A stretch of DNA of 5,647 nt from Candidatus Rifleibacteriota bacterium. GTDB lineage: Bacteria; Riflebacteria; Ozemobacteria; Ozemobacterales; Ozemobacteraceae. Of the stretch, positions 1,070 through 5,647 are shown one piece after another. Under the pieces are notes generated by a model. It was not told the origin of the DNA, ran no database searches, and saw only the letters and a list, made by a program, of their open reading frames with translations. The stretch covers positions 1 to 5,647 of the forward strand of contig JAKQKW010000135.1 in assembly GCA_029560455.1 (NCBI GenBank). The letters run 5' to 3'. The position numbers were made by a program, and so were the translations under genes. The number at the start of each line of letters is the position of its first letter. Positions within the stretch are counted from its first letter, which is position 1.

Positions 1070-1243
1070 ATGCGCTTTAAGCGCCTTATTGTCAGGGAAG
1101 GGGCTTTGCGTTATACTATTTGTATGTCAGATTTTGAACTTACCAGAAGCATGATCGATCGCTCCCGGGTAATTGCCAAAGGGCTGGCTATTCGCGACGT
1201 TCAGAGGCTTGTCAAGACTTTCAGAGGCAATAAAAAATCATGA
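1070..1243 (+). pseudogene. damaged Ffh M-domain-like fragment, possible 39-aa micro-ORF (1124-1243) coupled to nuclease 1
   Basis: The frame from 1070 (57 codons; 39 from the ATG at 1124) contains MSDFELTRSMIDRSRV, then IAKGLAIRDVQRLVKTF and a basic end. This resembles the SRP54/Ffh M domain, whose conserved part reads roughly 'ii.SMt..ER..P..id.SR..RIAkGSGtsv.dVnrLlk.F'. Compared with that pattern, about two residues are missing between SR and IAKG and about two after IAKG. That removes the RRIAKGSG core that contacts SRP RNA, so it is unlikely to work as Ffh. Its TGA overlaps the ATG of nuclease gene 1 as ATGA, an arrangement typical of translational coupling. It may be a pure relic of a chromosomal gene end, or a relic now used as a leaderless upstream cistron. 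The Ffh similarity is my recognition of a motif and has not been searched. Confidence 0.45.
1089..1117 (+). promoter_or_regulatory. sigma70-type promoter for nuclease locus 1
   Basis: TTGTCA at 1089-1094 and TATACT at 1112-1117 are separated by exactly 17 bases, close to consensus. Transcription would be expected to start about seven bases after the -10 box. That falls on or next to the ATG at 1124, so the first message codon could be an ATG with no leader. The promoter lies inside the Ffh-like fragment. The spacing from the -10 box to the ATG (six bases) is identical to that at nuclease locus 2. Confidence 0.6.
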
Positions 1244-2169
1244 ATATCGTTGATAATTCAGAAGTTAAATATTTCGGGCTGACTAATGACCTGCTGTTTA
1301 AGATTGTATTTGGCAGCAAAGGCAATGAAAAGCTTCTGGCTTTGATGCTAAATGCCCTGCTCAGTCTTAAGGGAAATCAGCAGATCGAAGAGCTTGAAAT
1401 TCTCAACCCGATCAATCTTCCTGAGTGGCAAAACGGCAAACAGTCTGTAATTGACGTTAAGGCTCGTGACATCAGCGGTGAAGTCTATTGCGTCGAAATT
1501 CAGGTTAAAGCCCATGCCGAGATCTTAAAGCGAGTATTGTTCTACTCTGCAGCAAGTTATACCAGACAAATTGTCCGTGGCGCAAAATATGCTGATCTTA
1601 ACAAAACAGTCTGTTTATGGATAATGTGTGAAACGACCCTGCCTGAACCAGAGATTTACAATAAATATCTGATCAAGCACGATAAAAATAACAATATCCT
1701 CACAGACCTTATGGAATACCACTTTGTTGAGTTGTCAAAATTTGACAAGAGCAAGCCTGCTGAGTTGCAAAACCGATTTGAAAAATGGCTTCATATTTTA
1801 AAATTCGGCGATTATTACCGCAGCGATTCTGAGTTGCCAGGTGAGCTCAAAAAAGAAAAAGGAATATGCGAGGTAATAAAACAAATGAGCACAGCCAACA
1901 CTGACGAGCATATGAGATACGAGCTTCTCGCCAGAGAAATGTTTTTAAGCGACCTGGCCACCGACCTGGACGCTGCTGAAAAAAAAGGCATCGAAAAAGG
2001 CATCGAAAAAGTTGCTCTAAAAATGCTTGCCAAAGGAAAGTCTTTTGAAGAAATCGCCGAAGCAACTGACCTGACCATTGATCAAATAAAGGCCATTGCC
2101 AGCAACAACAAATTCTGCGAACCCGCTGCACCCTATAAAGCCCCCAGGAAGCGAAAAAACGCCACATAA
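1240..2169 (+). CDS. Rpn-type PD-(D/E)XK nuclease (PDDEXK_2 family), nuclease 1
   Basis: A 309-residue protein of the group annotated 'Rpn family recombination-promoting nuclease/putative transposase'. The N-terminal motif TNDLLFKIVFG (residues 15-25) is the family signature. The nuclease core follows: Asp72 in SVIDVKA, then Glu86 and Gln88 in CVEIQVK, the D...ExQ form of PD-(D/E)XK, with metal-dependent DNA cleavage expected. Residues 90-200 complete the fold. From about residue 245 come two GIEK repeats, encoded by two identical 12-base units at 1987-2010, then LKMLAKGKSFEEIAEATDL, a predicted small helical module, and a basic tail. The start is set by ATGA overlap with the upstream frame and an AGAGG at 1223-1227. 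It is more AT-rich than ugd, consistent with transfer. Relatives in E. coli promote RecA-independent recombination and act in phage defence. No transposase partner or terminal repeats are seen. Confidence 0.9.
   Translation: MNIVDNSEVKYFGLTNDLLFKIVFGSKGNEKLLALMLNALLSLKGNQQIEELEILNPINLPEWQNGKQSVIDVKARDISGEVYCVEIQVKAHAEILKRVLFYSAASYTRQIVRGAKYADLNKTVCLWIMCETTLPEPEIYNKYLIKHDKNNNILTDLMEYHFVELSKFDKSKPAELQNRFEKWLHILKFGDYYRSDSELPGELKKEKGICEVIKQMSTANTDEHMRYELLAREMFLSDLATDLDAAEKKGIEKGIEKVALKMLAKGKSFEEIAEATDLTIDQIKAIASNNKFCEPAAPYKAPRKRKNAT
1885..2169 (+). CDS. possible nested C-terminal short form of nuclease 1 (94 aa)
   Basis: An in-frame ATG at codon 216 of nuclease 1 is preceded by GAGGT at 1870-1874, ten bases before the ATG. 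That is a usable but distant Shine-Dalgarno. The product would have 94 residues and contain only the GIEK repeats, the LKMLAKG helical module and the basic tail, with no nuclease residues. Its length is almost the same as the better-supported nested product of nuclease 2 (95 residues). By analogy with E. coli RpnA it could be an intragenic antitoxin. Other in-frame ATGs at codons 225 and 234 are alternatives. This is a hypothesis, weaker than the one for nuclease 2. Confidence 0.35.
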   Translation: MSTANTDEHMRYELLAREMFLSDLATDLDAAEKKGIEKGIEKVALKMLAKGKSFEEIAEATDLTIDQIKAIASNNKFCEPAAPYKAPRKRKNAT

Positions 2170-2980: not shown

Positions 2981-3098
2981 TTCCCCCCCTTACCCCGGCC
3001 CCGAGTGAAGTATTTCAATGCAGACGGCAATCTATCTGTGTCTCCTGACCTGCCCCAAAATTAGCCGGTGCTAATCTACAGATCAGTATTTCCCGCCC

Positions 3099-3197
3099 GG
3101 CAAGCTGGAATACGCTGTATTATTGATTGAACTCAAATCTCAGGCGCTTTTTTAAAGCGGCTTTAATTTCGCCGGTCGGGCCGTTTTTGCTCATCAG
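3099..3197. repeat. 99-bp direct repeat, left copy (flanks nuclease 2)
   Basis: Matches 4773-4871 in the same orientation over 99 bases with four mismatches (3104, 3114, 3134, 3153) and no gaps. It covers the last about 26 codons of minus-strand gene X plus 21 bases beyond its stop. The two copies bracket nuclease gene 2, so recombination between them would excise a 1674-bp unit carrying that gene. Confidence 0.9.
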
Positions 3198-3260
3198 GCT
3201 GACGATATTGTCTGCCAGCTCCGGGATTCCTATCAAATGCAGATCTTCGGCACCACACAT
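3120..3260 (-). pseudogene. 3' end of unrecognised gene X, longer copy
   Basis: On the minus strand the frame reads [18 protein letters not shown], then [19 protein letters not shown] and EFNQ before TAA. Its composition and sequence look like a genuine protein C-terminus of about 46 residues, but I cannot assign a family. At 3261 the sequence switches to a fragment of ugd, so the N-terminal part is missing. The longer open frame that continues to 3356 only reads antisense ugd. A shorter copy, with the stop three codons earlier, lies at 4806-4871. In both places gene X points away from ugd sequence, suggesting that X and ugd were once divergent neighbours. Confidence 0.55.
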
Positions 3261-3354
3261 AATCGAGGTCTGGGGTCTGGCTTTCAAACCCAATACCGAC
3301 GATATGCGCGAAGCCCCGTCGATCGTGCTGATCGAGAATCTGCTGGCTGCCGGC
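3261..3354 (+). pseudogene. internal ugd fragment, third copy
   Basis: Equals bases 506-599 of the left ugd copy with one difference (3266). Bases 3267-3354 are 88 identical bases in a row. It encodes [16 protein letters not shown] and the following residues of the C-terminal domain and cannot make a functional enzyme. The left boundary abuts gene X with no spacer, and the right boundary at 3354/3355 is equally abrupt. Near-perfect identity means the copying was recent, or that it is kept similar by gene conversion. Confidence 0.9.
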
Positions 3355-3534: not shown

Positions 3535-3563
3535 TTGCTACAGGTCTGCGGCTAAGATATAAT
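3535..3563 (+). promoter_or_regulatory. sigma70-type promoter for nuclease 2, predicted leaderless
   Basis: TTGCTA at 3535-3540 and a perfect TATAAT at 3558-3563 are separated by exactly 17 bases. The ATG of nuclease 2 begins at 3570, six bases after the -10 box, where transcription should start. No Shine-Dalgarno precedes that ATG. A leaderless message is the simplest reading. Confidence 0.7.
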
Positions 3564-3569
3564 AATCCA

Positions 3570-4580
3570 ATGGGTGACAAGGATAAAAGCTACAAACTGT
3601 TGTTTTCGCATGCGCAGATGGTCAAAGAACTTCTGTGCGATTTTGTCAGAGAAGACTGGATAAAACTCATAGATTTTTCGACCCTGAAGAAATACAACAA
3701 CTCCTTTGTTTCAGATGATTTAAAAGAGCGTTTCGACGATGTTATCTGGACTGTTAAATGGGGGAAGCAGCAGCTTTACATTTACATTCTGATCGAGTTT
3801 CAATCTGGCATCGACTACTTTATGAGCGTTCGCATGATGACCTATCTCGGACTGCTCTACCAGGATCTTATAATATCCAAAACAGTCAAAACAGGCCAGA
3901 AACTGCCGCCTGTTCTGCCGATAGTGCTATATAATGGTTCAAAGCGCTGGGATAATGCTCCTCTTGACATAAAAGATGTGATAGAGAAAGCGCCACGTGG
4001 TCTTGATCAGTATCTGCCACGATTACGCTATTTACTGATCGATGAAGGCTATTATGGAAACCACGAGCTTGAAAGTCTAAAAAGTGTGGTTTCGGTTCTT
4101 TTCCAATTAGAGCGCCAACAGACACCTGAAGATGTCTGCAAGATAATTGCTACCCTGATCGACTGGCTAAAAGCTCCTGAACAACTAAGCCTCAGACGTG
4201 CCTTTACTGTCTGGCTCGGCAGAGTATTACTGCCAAGCCGCTACCCTGGTAAATCAATACCAGAATTTCACGACTTGCAGGAGGTGCATGCAATGTTATC
4301 AGAAACCGTAAAATCCTGGCCTGCTCAATGGATGGCCAAAGGAATGGAAAAAGGTATAGAAAAAGGCATAGAAAAGGGCATAGAAAAGGGCCGCGCAGAA
4401 ACCCTGGTGCAAACAGCACTAAAAATGCTGAGCAAAGGTATCAGTGTCGAAGTAATTTCAGAAATCACCAGCCTGAGTCGCGACCAGATCGAAAAGCTGG
4501 CGAACGACAAAAACCGCGTTTCAGAGCCAGCCGCTGATTACAAACCCGCCCGCAAAACCAAACCCCGCCGCCGTAAATAG
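3570..4580 (+). CDS. Rpn/YhgA-like nuclease (Transposase_31 family), nuclease 2
   Basis: A 336-residue protein of the YhgA/RpnA-type group, PD-(D/E)XK nucleases linked in E. coli to RecA-independent recombination and phage defence. Family features occur in order: DKSYKLLFSHAQMVKELL (residues 5-22), NSFVSDDLKERFDDVIW with Asp57, YIYILIEFQS with Glu76 and Gln78 as the D...ExQ catalytic set, and KLPPVLPIVLYNG near 110-122. The C-terminal third holds four to five GIEK-type repeats (from about residue 257), then LKMLSKGISVEVISEITSL and a very basic tail. The start at 3570 is supported by the family N-terminus and by the promoter ending six bases upstream. It has no Shine-Dalgarno, whereas a strong one sits inside the gene at 4279. 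The gene is bracketed by a 99-bp direct repeat. No partner transposase or terminal repeats are visible. Confidence 0.92.
   Translation: MGDKDKSYKLLFSHAQMVKELLCDFVREDWIKLIDFSTLKKYNNSFVSDDLKERFDDVIWTVKWGKQQLYIYILIEFQSGIDYFMSVRMMTYLGLLYQDLIISKTVKTGQKLPPVLPIVLYNGSKRWDNAPLDIKDVIEKAPRGLDQYLPRLRYLLIDEGYYGNHELESLKSVVSVLFQLERQQTPEDVCKIIATLIDWLKAPEQLSLRRAFTVWLGRVLLPSRYPGKSIPEFHDLQEVHAMLSETVKSWPAQWMAKGMEKGIEKGIEKGIEKGRAETLVQTALKMLSKGISVEVISEITSLSRDQIEKLANDKNRVSEPAADYKPARKTKPRRRK
4279..4286 (+). promoter_or_regulatory. strong intragenic Shine-Dalgarno
   Basis: AGGAGGTG is a near-complete anti-16S match. Its GGAGG core ends eight bases before the in-frame ATG at 4293 (codon 242 of nuclease 2). It is the best ribosome site in the window, and it lies inside a gene whose own start has none. 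An out-of-frame ATG at 4288 is too close to use it. Confidence 0.75.
4293..4580 (+). CDS. nested C-terminal short form of nuclease 2, putative intragenic antitoxin (95 aa)
   Basis: In frame with nuclease 2 from Met242 (MLSETVKSWPAQWMAKG) to the shared stop, 95 residues. It contains the GIEK repeats, the helical LKMLSKGISVEVISEITSL segment and the basic tail, but none of the nuclease core. Initiation is supported by the ideal ribosome site just upstream. In the E. coli RpnA system the 3' part of the gene is separately translated, and the small product binds and inhibits the toxic full-length protein. Size, position and domain content here fit that arrangement. The regulatory role is inferred from this analogy. 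The start itself is directly supported by sequence. Confidence 0.65.
   Translation: MLSETVKSWPAQWMAKGMEKGIEKGIEKGIEKGRAETLVQTALKMLSKGISVEVISEITSLSRDQIEKLANDKNRVSEPAADYKPARKTKPRRRK
4341..4388 (+). repeat. 12-bp in-frame tandem repeats (GIEK units)
   Basis: Four consecutive 12-base units of the form GG.AT.GAAAA(A/G). The last two are identical, and a fifth degenerate unit follows. They encode GMEK GIEK GIEK GIEK. Because each unit is four codons, slippage changes the linker length without breaking either the long or the nested frame. Nuclease 1 has two exact units at 1987-2010. Confidence 0.9.
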
Positions 4581-4604: not shown

Positions 4605-4793
4605 TCAGCAGTTAAACTGTCTGGCCCGGCAGTGCAAAACATGCTCGACAAGCTCCTGAAAAGTTTCAGCAGTCACTGCGCTATTCTTGAAACGATACCA
4701 ATGATCGCCAGACGAAGAACCCTTCTTCATAAAACCATACATAAACGCCTGGCAGATTTTTCCTGAACGCCAGGCAATCTGGAATACACTGTA
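4605..4793 (-). pseudogene. minus-strand open stretch, probable gene end of unknown family
   Basis: The minus strand is open for 63 codons to a TGA at 4605-4607. From an ATG at 4742 it reads MYGFMKKGSSSGDHWYRF, then KNSAVTAETFQELVEHVL and a Cys-containing end. The composition (Trp, His, well-spaced charged residues) looks protein-like, but no family is recognised and no ribosome site was found. It lies downstream of the gene X end on the same strand and shares its first codons with the 99-bp repeat. It may be the tail of another decayed gene or a chance frame. Confidence 0.3.
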
Positions 4794-4871
4794 TTATTGA
4801 TTGAACTAAAATCTCAGGCGCTTTTTAAAAGCGGCTTTAATTTCGCCGGTCGGGCCGTTTTTGCTCATCAG
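4773..4871. repeat. 99-bp direct repeat, right copy, with shorter gene X end
   Basis: Second copy of the repeat at 3099-3197, 95 of 99 bases identical. On the minus strand it encodes [20 protein letters not shown] of gene X and stops three codons earlier than the left copy because one base change (4808) creates TAG. Gene X is cut at 4871, immediately before the upstream region of the right ugd copy. Confidence 0.9.
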
Positions 4872-4873
4872 AC

Positions 4874-4901
4874 TTGATTTTTCTGCTGCTGATGATAGAT
4901 A
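4874..4901 (+). promoter_or_regulatory. weak candidate promoter for the right ugd copy
   Basis: TTGATT (4874-4879) and TAGATA (4896-4901) are 16 bases apart and about 50 bases before the ugd start. The same stretch can form an interrupted stem: CTTGAT and GCTGC on the left pair with GCAGC-ATCAAG at 4916-4926. Both hexamers are imperfect, so this is tentative. Confidence 0.3.
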
Positions 4902-4949: not shown

Positions 4950-5647
4950 ATGAAAATTGCCATGATCGGAACCGGTTATGTTGGTCTGGTTACAGGAACC
5001 TGCTTTGCGGAATCGGGCAATGATGTTATTTGCGTTGACACTGACGAAAAGAAGATTGCCGGGCTCAGAGACGGCATTATTCCGATTTATGAACCCGGTC
5101 TCGATGGCCTGGTCAAACGCAATGTCGGCGAAGAACGCCTCTCTTTCACGACCAGTCTCGAAGATGCTGTGGCAAAATCGTTGCTGCTGTTCATTGCGGT
5201 TGGCACCCCGCCGGGCGAAGACGGGTCAGCAGATCTCAGGCATGTTCTGGCGGTTGCCCGGGGCATCGGGCGCAGTATGAAAGAGTACCGGGTCATCGTT
5301 GATAAATCGACGGTTCCGGTTGGCACTGGCGAGAAGGTTAAGGCAGACATTCGCGAAGAACTTGCCGCCCGCGGTGAGAATATTCCCTTCGATGTGGTGA
5401 GCAACCCTGAATTTCTTAAAGAGGGCAATGCCATCGACGATTTCATGAAACCTGACCGGGTGGTTATCGGCTGCGAAGACGTTCGCACCGGCGAGCAGCA
5501 TTCATACCAGCTTGAAATTCTCGAAGCGGTAGAAGCGGTGAATTATCGCCAGAAAAAGGTTCTTTTTAACAAACTCGTGCGCCGATACGGCGAGAATTTA
5601 ACAGGCAAAACAATCGCGGTCTGGGGTCTGGCTTTCAAACCCAATAC
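4950..5647 (+). CDS. ugd: UDP-glucose 6-dehydrogenase, right copy with 97-codon in-frame deletion (3' end outside window)
   Basis: The start at 4950 is backed by GAAAGG (4936-4941) eight bases upstream and the dinucleotide-binding start [12 protein letters not shown]. 232 codons are open to the window edge. Intact parts are the N-terminal NAD domain with [15 protein letters not shown] and [10 protein letters not shown] (residues about 82-127), and [10 protein letters not shown] near 150. After residue 182 the sequence jumps to what is residue 280 in the left copy. The missing 97 residues contain the family's catalytic Lys210, Asn214 and Cys266 and most of the central dimer helix, so the product should be inactive. 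The reading frame survives. The retained overlap with the left copy differs by only two synonymous bases (5474, 5528). Gene end and fate are outside the window. Confidence 0.9.
5398..5647 (+). repeat. direct repeat of the left ugd copy with 291-bp deletion
   Basis: Bases 5398-5496 correspond to 1-99, and 5487-5647 correspond to 381-541, with one difference in each segment. The junction is the 10-base sequence ACCGGCGAGC, which occurs twice in the left copy, at 90-99 and 381-390. This is the expected product of slippage or recombination between short direct repeats. Confidence 0.95.

Follow-up and report, generated by a model that had tools for sequence, protein, structure and literature searches.

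A conserved internal start in a nuclease gene of Candidatus Rifleibacteriota points to a gene-within-gene toxin-antitoxin unit of the RpnL/RpnS kind

The closest described counterparts of the gene studied here are the Rpn nucleases of E. coli. An internal start is present in all five E. coli rpn genes (rpnA to rpnE), with M244 among the mutations studied in rpnA, and the full-length form RpnL inhibits growth, induces the SOS response and cleaves DNA, all of which the short form RpnS restrains (PMC10327210). Four-residue repeats lie 8 to 20 residues past the RpnS methionine, inside the first RpnS helix; their number is variable, and rpnS is duplicated, lost or fused in places (PMC10327210). RpnS is a three-helix bundle that forms a dimer via its first helix (PDB 7TH0). 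Release of the Rpn toxin was named in PMC10327210 as a key unresolved issue.

Here, a stretch of 5,647 nucleotides of a Candidatus Rifleibacteriota genome (contig JAKQKW010000135.1; hereafter the window) was analysed, which carries two nuclease genes on the forward strand, referred to as nuclease 1 and nuclease 2. Judged from its sequence, nuclease 2 belongs to the gene-within-gene toxin-antitoxin kind described as RpnL/RpnS (PMC10327210). Its rpnL frame (positions 3570 to 4580; 336 residues) matched PF04754 (8.3e-31, 107.6 bits; cut-off 21) and TIGR01784 (8e-21, 75.1 bits; cut-off 52.1). The PD-(D/E)XK-type residues D57, E76 and Q78 (codons at 3738, 3795 and 3801) as well as R88 were invariant in 69 sequences and align with D63, E82, Q84 and R94 of RpnA. 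In a profile comparison, the nuclease 2 family matched RpnA/B/C/E over 290 columns with a probability of 99.5%. Like RpnL/RpnS of E. coli K-12 and the rpn gene of C. difficile, nuclease 2 combines a PF04754/TIGR01784 nuclease with a D, E-x-Q active-site pattern, an internal Shine-Dalgarno (SD) sequence and ATG near codon 240 that predict a short C-terminal product, KGIE-type four-residue repeats past the RpnS methionine, and a predicted helical tail. Close full-length homologues shared about 73-87% identity with nuclease 2, and two of the close proteins (P0014 and P0022) are labelled Candidatus Riflebacteria. Relatives were also found in 4494 plasmid records, all at less than 60% identity, and none was confirmed in the viral contigs searched. 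PADLOC models gave only a weak match of the tail to a 'putative invertase' model.

The internal SD of nuclease 2, AGGAGG, is located at positions 4279 to 4284 of the forward strand (AGGAGGTG to 4286) and is followed, after an 8-nt spacer, by an in-frame ATG at 4293 to 4295, which is codon 242 (M242). The predicted antitoxin gene rpnS (4293 to 4580) would encode the C-terminal 95 residues. SD strength was scored for ATG, GTG and TTG triplets as duplex energy with the 16S tail. ATG 4293 reached -11.6 kcal/mol compared to -1.3 at the own ATG of the gene (3570) and -5.5 at its second-best in-frame start, and it ranked first among the 481 start triplets of the window (244 + 237 on the two strands). 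The SD, the ATG at codon 242 and the 95-residue product that a first-pass annotation had predicted were thus confirmed in the sequence. That annotation had also called the SD unusually strong, which holds in comparison with the E. coli rpn genes (-7.4 to -10.8) but not among the gene's own relatives, in which values of about -11 are common.

As a positive control, the same scan was applied to E. coli K-12, where it placed an internal start, at codons 241 to 245, first in five of five rpn genes. The codon ranked first in rpnA was the published M244; two adjacent ATGs tied in rpnC, and in rpnB the own start scored -8.0 versus -8.7 for the internal one. Strict identity of M242 with M244 of RpnA could not be established, as the profile alignment sets the two methionines several residues apart, with a gap.

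With respect to the ribosome, the 16S rRNA of a close relative (genome G002) matched RF00177 up to the last position, and by its coordinates GGATCACCTCCTT, which includes the anti-SD CCTCC, is located at this end; of 12 draft genomes searched, four contained GGATCACCTCCTT. The RNA around the internal start had a stability at the median for the transcript; in its predicted fold the SD was mostly free (mean 0.73), but ATG 4293 was mostly paired at two of its three bases. A hairpin with the SD in its loop was predicted as well; by eye, the flanking stem bases differ in the related locus L051.

When the nuclease 2 peptide was recoded synonymously 1000 times with its own codon usage, the same SD strength was attained in 7.4% of the draws. 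SD strength in this single gene therefore lies within chance, and for this reason relatives were collected. The loci contained 129 frames matching the query, of which 117 were distinct; 24 that did not span the site were dropped, and the 93 left were aligned; they count the window itself and include loci from genomes of Magnetococcales and Ectothiorhodospira. The codon aligned with codon 242 was ATG in 92 of these 93 frames, and GAGG or GGAG occurred upstream in 90, despite 24 different tripeptides being encoded there. The three exceptions were L118, with the weaker AAGGAAGG, and L072 and L120, in which GGAGG is found in another register and the ATG two codons later. A second set was assembled through Pfam family matches in the phylum to which the Magnetococcales genome G003 belongs (150 genomes, 37 matching, 30 loci used, 32 frames). 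In 31 of these 32 frames, the best internal ATG or GTG by SD fell 40 to 140 residues before the end, a stretch estimated to make up about one third of the positions scanned. The conserved site and the E. coli control, taken together, make nuclease 2 a member of the RpnL/RpnS kind and no separate invention. The first-pass annotation had regarded it as an independent instance; family-wide occurrence of the internal start argues against an independent origin in this lineage.

Selection on the site was analysed in 43 diverged representatives (less than 70% identity in the nuclease part). Their mean SD energy was -9.6 compared to -5.4 for the synonymous null (Wilcoxon p = 7e-13), and the SD was stronger than its own null mean in 42 of them. 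The codon for Glu238 was GAG in 39 of the 41 representatives with Glu, whereas at the other Glu positions of these genes GAG made up 570 of 1292 codons (p = 4e-12). Among 287 alignment columns, codon 238 was the most synonymously constrained (z = 7.0, the next column 4.6; mean 1.8, sd 1.1). Across all groups, 32 of 38 representatives had an internal SD stronger than the best SD at their own start. Whether SD and Met242 are kept in homologues above codon requirements had been raised as a check on the initial prediction; the near-fixed GAG, the rank of codon 238 and the aligned ATG answer it in the affirmative and support a conservation of the site beyond its coding role. At Glu245, three codons past the internal ATG, GAA was used in 20 of 26 Glu codons (column z = 4.1), a preference that possibly keeps the G content low just downstream of the start.

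The purine stretch and the methionine might instead be retained for the protein, where they would form a Glu-Val turn and begin a helix, or because ribosomes pause there, with no initiation taking place. Glu238, Val239 and Met242 are indeed highly conserved as residues, and the strength of the SD in the single gene, as stated, is within synonymous chance. What makes this explanation highly improbable is that the constraint acts on the codon and goes beyond the residue, with GAG nearly fixed and codon 238 first of all sites. The residue after Glu is mostly Val, Asp or Ala, all with GNN codons (85 of 93 frames), and GGAGG survives the register change in L072 and L120 together with a following ATG. 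A pause site, moreover, would not need an ATG. A further point against it comes from relatives of nuclease 1, a number of which have their best SD and its ATG at an earlier position.

Nuclease 1 (rpnL at 1240 to 2169, forward strand; 309 residues) belongs to PF12784 (PDDEXK_2) and TIGR01784. The SD scan located an internal SD, GAGGT, at 1870 to 1874, followed by a predicted rpnS at 1885 to 2169 (M216; 94 residues), which has the best SD of the gene (-7.2 versus -5.8 at the own start). This site, the missing SD at the own start of nuclease 2 and the tail exchange described below were absent from the first-pass annotation. From 50 distinct matches to nuclease 1, nine that did not span the site were set aside, and 41 frames were aligned (window included). 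The seven closest relatives have the internal start at the same codon, whereas in 14 of the 41 frames the best SD and ATG are found five codons earlier (-6.1 to -12.5). Overall, an in-frame start of -6 or stronger lay within 15 codons of the site in 29 of 41 frames and a good site was lacking in 12, as raw counts. The PF12784 relatives, nuclease 1 included, resemble nuclease 2 in their TIGR01784 match, the GIEKG repeat and a common tail; they differ in that the internal start is often in another register and that 22 of 33 have an SD-led own start (-5.5 or stronger). The window is 96% identical to a contig of G002 (loci L122/L157) from 1066 to 1976. Another relative from the phylum, G036, contained 28 matches to nuclease 1, several of them clustered on contig C18. 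A 39-codon ORF at 1124 to 1243 ends with a TGA that overlaps the ATG of nuclease 1 (ATGA), an arrangement that suggests translational coupling.

An AlphaFold2 model of nuclease 2 was built from 69 sequences (mean pLDDT 83, pTM 0.71). It shows the helices of the nuclease part up to residue 224, a short helix at the internal start (236-246), and a long helix (250-288) that bears the repeat. The repeat consists of four 12-nt units at 4338 to 4385 (forward strand), encoding KGME-KGIE-KGIE-KGIE; it sets in 15 residues past M242, within the published range of 8-20. The close proteins P0001, P0002 and P0003 comprise 332, 328 and 324 residues, and these steps of four residues fall in the repeat. Two short C-terminal helices (293-300 and 304-313; 4446 to 4508, forward strand) are predicted to form the RpnS tail, which is similar to that of L068. 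The model agrees with the published picture in which the repeat is part of the first RpnS helix. A PDB fold search with the nuclease and RpnAS gave 0 of 393 matches at E ≤ 0.001, with 7TH0 absent among the 50 matches listed, and PDB sequence searches gave no useful match either, 7TH0 included.

Upstream of nuclease 2, a promoter-like site is found at 3535 to 3563 (forward strand), made up of a -35 box TTGCTA (3535-3540), a 17-nt spacer and a -10 box TATAAT (3558-3563), with 10 of 12 matches. Taken alone the site is weak, because the region holds three such sites compared to 1.6 +/- 1.2 in shuffled sequences. In E. coli, RpnS has a promoter of its own within rpnL; by the same comparison, the one forward-strand candidate for such a promoter in nuclease 2 (4119-4147; 9 of 12 matches) was at chance level. 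Just 6 nt separate TATAAT from ATG 3570, so that transcription is predicted to start at or next to 3570, an ATG that has no SD.

The position of the -10 box was then compared among relatives. From 46 aligned frames of the phylum, three without an ATG at this place and one with a gap were removed, and 42 were scored (window included). A -10 box was defined as TAnnnT with at least four of six matches to TATAAT, 6-9 nt before the ATG. Such a box preceded the nuclease ATG in 35 of the 42 phylum genes, in 24 at exactly 6 nt, and was absent in seven; among phylum representatives the count was 17 of 22. TTG was present 17-18 nt before the box in 22 cases. Shuffled upstream DNA yielded a mean of three boxes in 42 and at most 10. 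Among 232 control genes from the genomes of the phylum, eight had a box, and the count rose to 11 if an ATG anywhere within the first 40 codons was accepted; the control rate is perhaps somewhat low because control starts were guessed from ORFs. The box was found in three of 33 PF12784-type rpn genes, and outside the phylum in one of 35 genes of the first set (0 of 12 representatives) and five of 31 of the second. None of the five E. coli K-12 rpn genes has a -10 box adjoining its ATG, which sets them apart from the SD-less own start of nuclease 2 with its box at 6 nt. Five proteins (P0007, P0009, P0014, P0017 and P0019) carry an N-terminal extension; four residues ahead of the methionine aligned with codon 1 it contains Tyr-Thr, Tyr-Asn or Tyr-Ile, pairs that a translated -10 box could yield.

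From the position of the box we infer that the nuclease 2 message is leaderless, with an SD-independent and probably weak toxin start and low RpnL output, next to an antitoxin start that is strong and depends on the SD. In Deinococcus-Thermus, leaderless genes are marked by a -10 box adjoining the ORF (PMC12340547). Leaderless messages are described as being translated with low efficiency in E. coli (PMC8485053) and as still being translated there under kasugamycin (PMC4929434). A leaderless reporter was robustly translated in M. tuberculosis (PMC8485053), which renders low output of RpnL uncertain. Nuclease 2 resembles the Deinococcus-Thermus genes (PMC12340547) in its TANNNT box a few bases ahead of the ATG, and its message is predicted to lack leader and SD, as in those genes and in leaderless toxin-antitoxin transcripts of M. 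tuberculosis (PMC8485053). Unlike there, where leaderlessness is a general mode of expression or extends to toxin-antitoxin transcripts at large, it is predicted here for one gene family in a phylum and is paired with an SD-led start in the same reading frame.

A further difference from RpnL/RpnS of E. coli is that the tail of nuclease 2 is common to nucleases of another Pfam family. The nuclease 2 tail was 80% identical to that of L068 over 61 residues, and the nuclease parts of the two were without detectable similarity. Likewise, nuclease 1 and P0007, which has a nuclease-2-type nuclease part, have tails with 93% identity over 57 residues, and the tail of the PF04754-type L061 matched that of nuclease 1 at 89% over 62 residues. 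At the DNA level, positions 1982-2227 were 95% identical to L061, extending 58 nt beyond the stop, with no other similar stretch between both genes. Conversely, L126, a broken copy in genome G027, was 95% identical to nuclease 1 until 2002, had a different tail, and showed similarity to the window again at 2679-2988. The tail-exchange junction of nuclease 1 is thereby placed at 1982 to 2002 (forward strand), in the GAAAAAGGCATC repeat, where similarity to L061 begins and similarity to L126 ends. Tails with at least 65% identity across 50 or more residues were shared by 279 pairs. In 14 of these pairs the nuclease parts were less than 50% identical, and in six of the 14 they had no detectable similarity; the 14 mismatched pairs came from the Riflebacteria set and G003. 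It appears from these comparisons that antitoxin tails have been exchanged between different Rpn nuclease families at the repeat. Both junctions in nuclease 1 lie inside the repeat and downstream of the internal start, so one exchange would alter both products, RpnL and RpnS, at once. Tail exchange between nuclease families is not described in the main text of PMC10327210. The literature matches listed included no further study of RpnS antitoxins and no work on leaderless rpn genes, and a search by family name returned no paper.

The surroundings of the two genes show signs of rearrangement. Positions 1-881, 3261-3354 and 4950-5647 contain pieces of what we take to be a nucleotide-sugar dehydrogenase-like gene. 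The segment 506-599 recurs at 3261-3354 (98.9%), and 1-99 and 381-541 recur at 5398-5496 and 5487-5647 (about 99%), the last copy being without the stretch between them; these duplications reflect either local rearrangement or an assembly artefact. A direct repeat of 107 bp (3094-3200 and 4768-4874, 94% identical) flanks nuclease 2, encloses a unit of 1567 bp, and could be a trace of the gain or duplication of this gene. Remnants of the nuclease 2 5'-end occur in L158 (about 2519-2640) and, on the reverse strand, in L075, with similarity beginning exactly at the ATG. Between the nuclease genes, a 58-aa ORF (2804-2980) has a good SD (-9.8) and no Pfam match, and gives the impression of a small antitoxin-type protein; the stretch 2765-2988 is 89% identical to sequence near the nuclease 1 copy in L126. 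A 68-aa ORF (2283-2489) matches the C-terminal piece of PF13749 (HATPase_c_4, RecG C-terminal) and is apparently a gene remnant.

Duplicated gene pieces, the 94% direct repeat and broken remnants in relatives are what would be expected if the locus were a decaying or inert copy whose products are of no relevance now. The 336 open codons, the invariant catalytic residues, the promoter-like and SD signals and the close full-length homologues make this very unlikely.

The best explanation of the locus as a whole, to which we assign a probability of roughly 0.75, is that nuclease 2 constitutes a toxin-antitoxin unit of the RpnL/RpnS gene-within-gene type, which would operate as follows. One leaderless message would be transcribed from a promoter with its -10 box almost adjoining the start codon. 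The 5' AUG of this message would give rise, by SD-less and probably weak initiation, to the full-length PD-(D/E)XK nuclease RpnL, and the SD-led AUG 242 to an excess of the 95-residue RpnS. The long repeat helix of RpnS would pair with the same helix in RpnL and hold the nuclease inactive until release, plausibly by phage infection, allows RpnL to cut DNA. The four-residue repeat would set length and register of the partner helix and would also be the point of whole-tail exchange, such that RpnL and RpnS are changed in one step. Translation, inhibition, toxicity and phage defence are ascribed to nuclease 2 by analogy with E. coli Rpn.

An internal start can also serve to make a structural subunit that the nuclease needs, as with Cas11d for Cas10d (cited in PMC10327210), and the short form would then be no inhibitor. 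Conservation of SD and ATG fits a helper and an inhibitor alike. This alternative is considered unlikely, since RpnS of E. coli restrains RpnL (PMC10327210) and nuclease 2 agrees with the E. coli genes in domain order, in where the site lies and in the repeat. The internal antitoxin proposed in the first-pass annotation is best read as a putative RpnS-like antitoxin, well supported by the conservation and the characterised family.

A more speculative and rather unlikely idea is that the two start modes in one frame act as a sensor of the ribosome state, with tail exchange switching partner specificity in one step. RpnL would require only an intact AUG at the mRNA end, and RpnS the 16S anti-SD and normal 30S initiation. 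Cleavage of the 16S tail, loss of an initiation factor or phage shut-off would then stop antitoxin synthesis while toxin synthesis continues, and the nuclease would be armed without a dedicated sensor.

Beyond the main text of PMC10327210, new aspects are the selection on the internal SD at the codon level, the leaderless-type toxin start in this phylum, and the exchange of tails at the repeat. The fixed GAG codon before the invariant methionine provides a simple marker for the annotation of RpnS in PF04754 genes, and comparable internal sites are present in many genes of PF12784. An exchange of tails at the repeat would account for a joint diversification of toxin and antitoxin. The combination of a leaderless start for the toxin and an SD-led one for the antitoxin inside the same gene offers a possible direct answer to the question of Rpn release, in that the mode of initiation would set the ratio of RpnL to RpnS.
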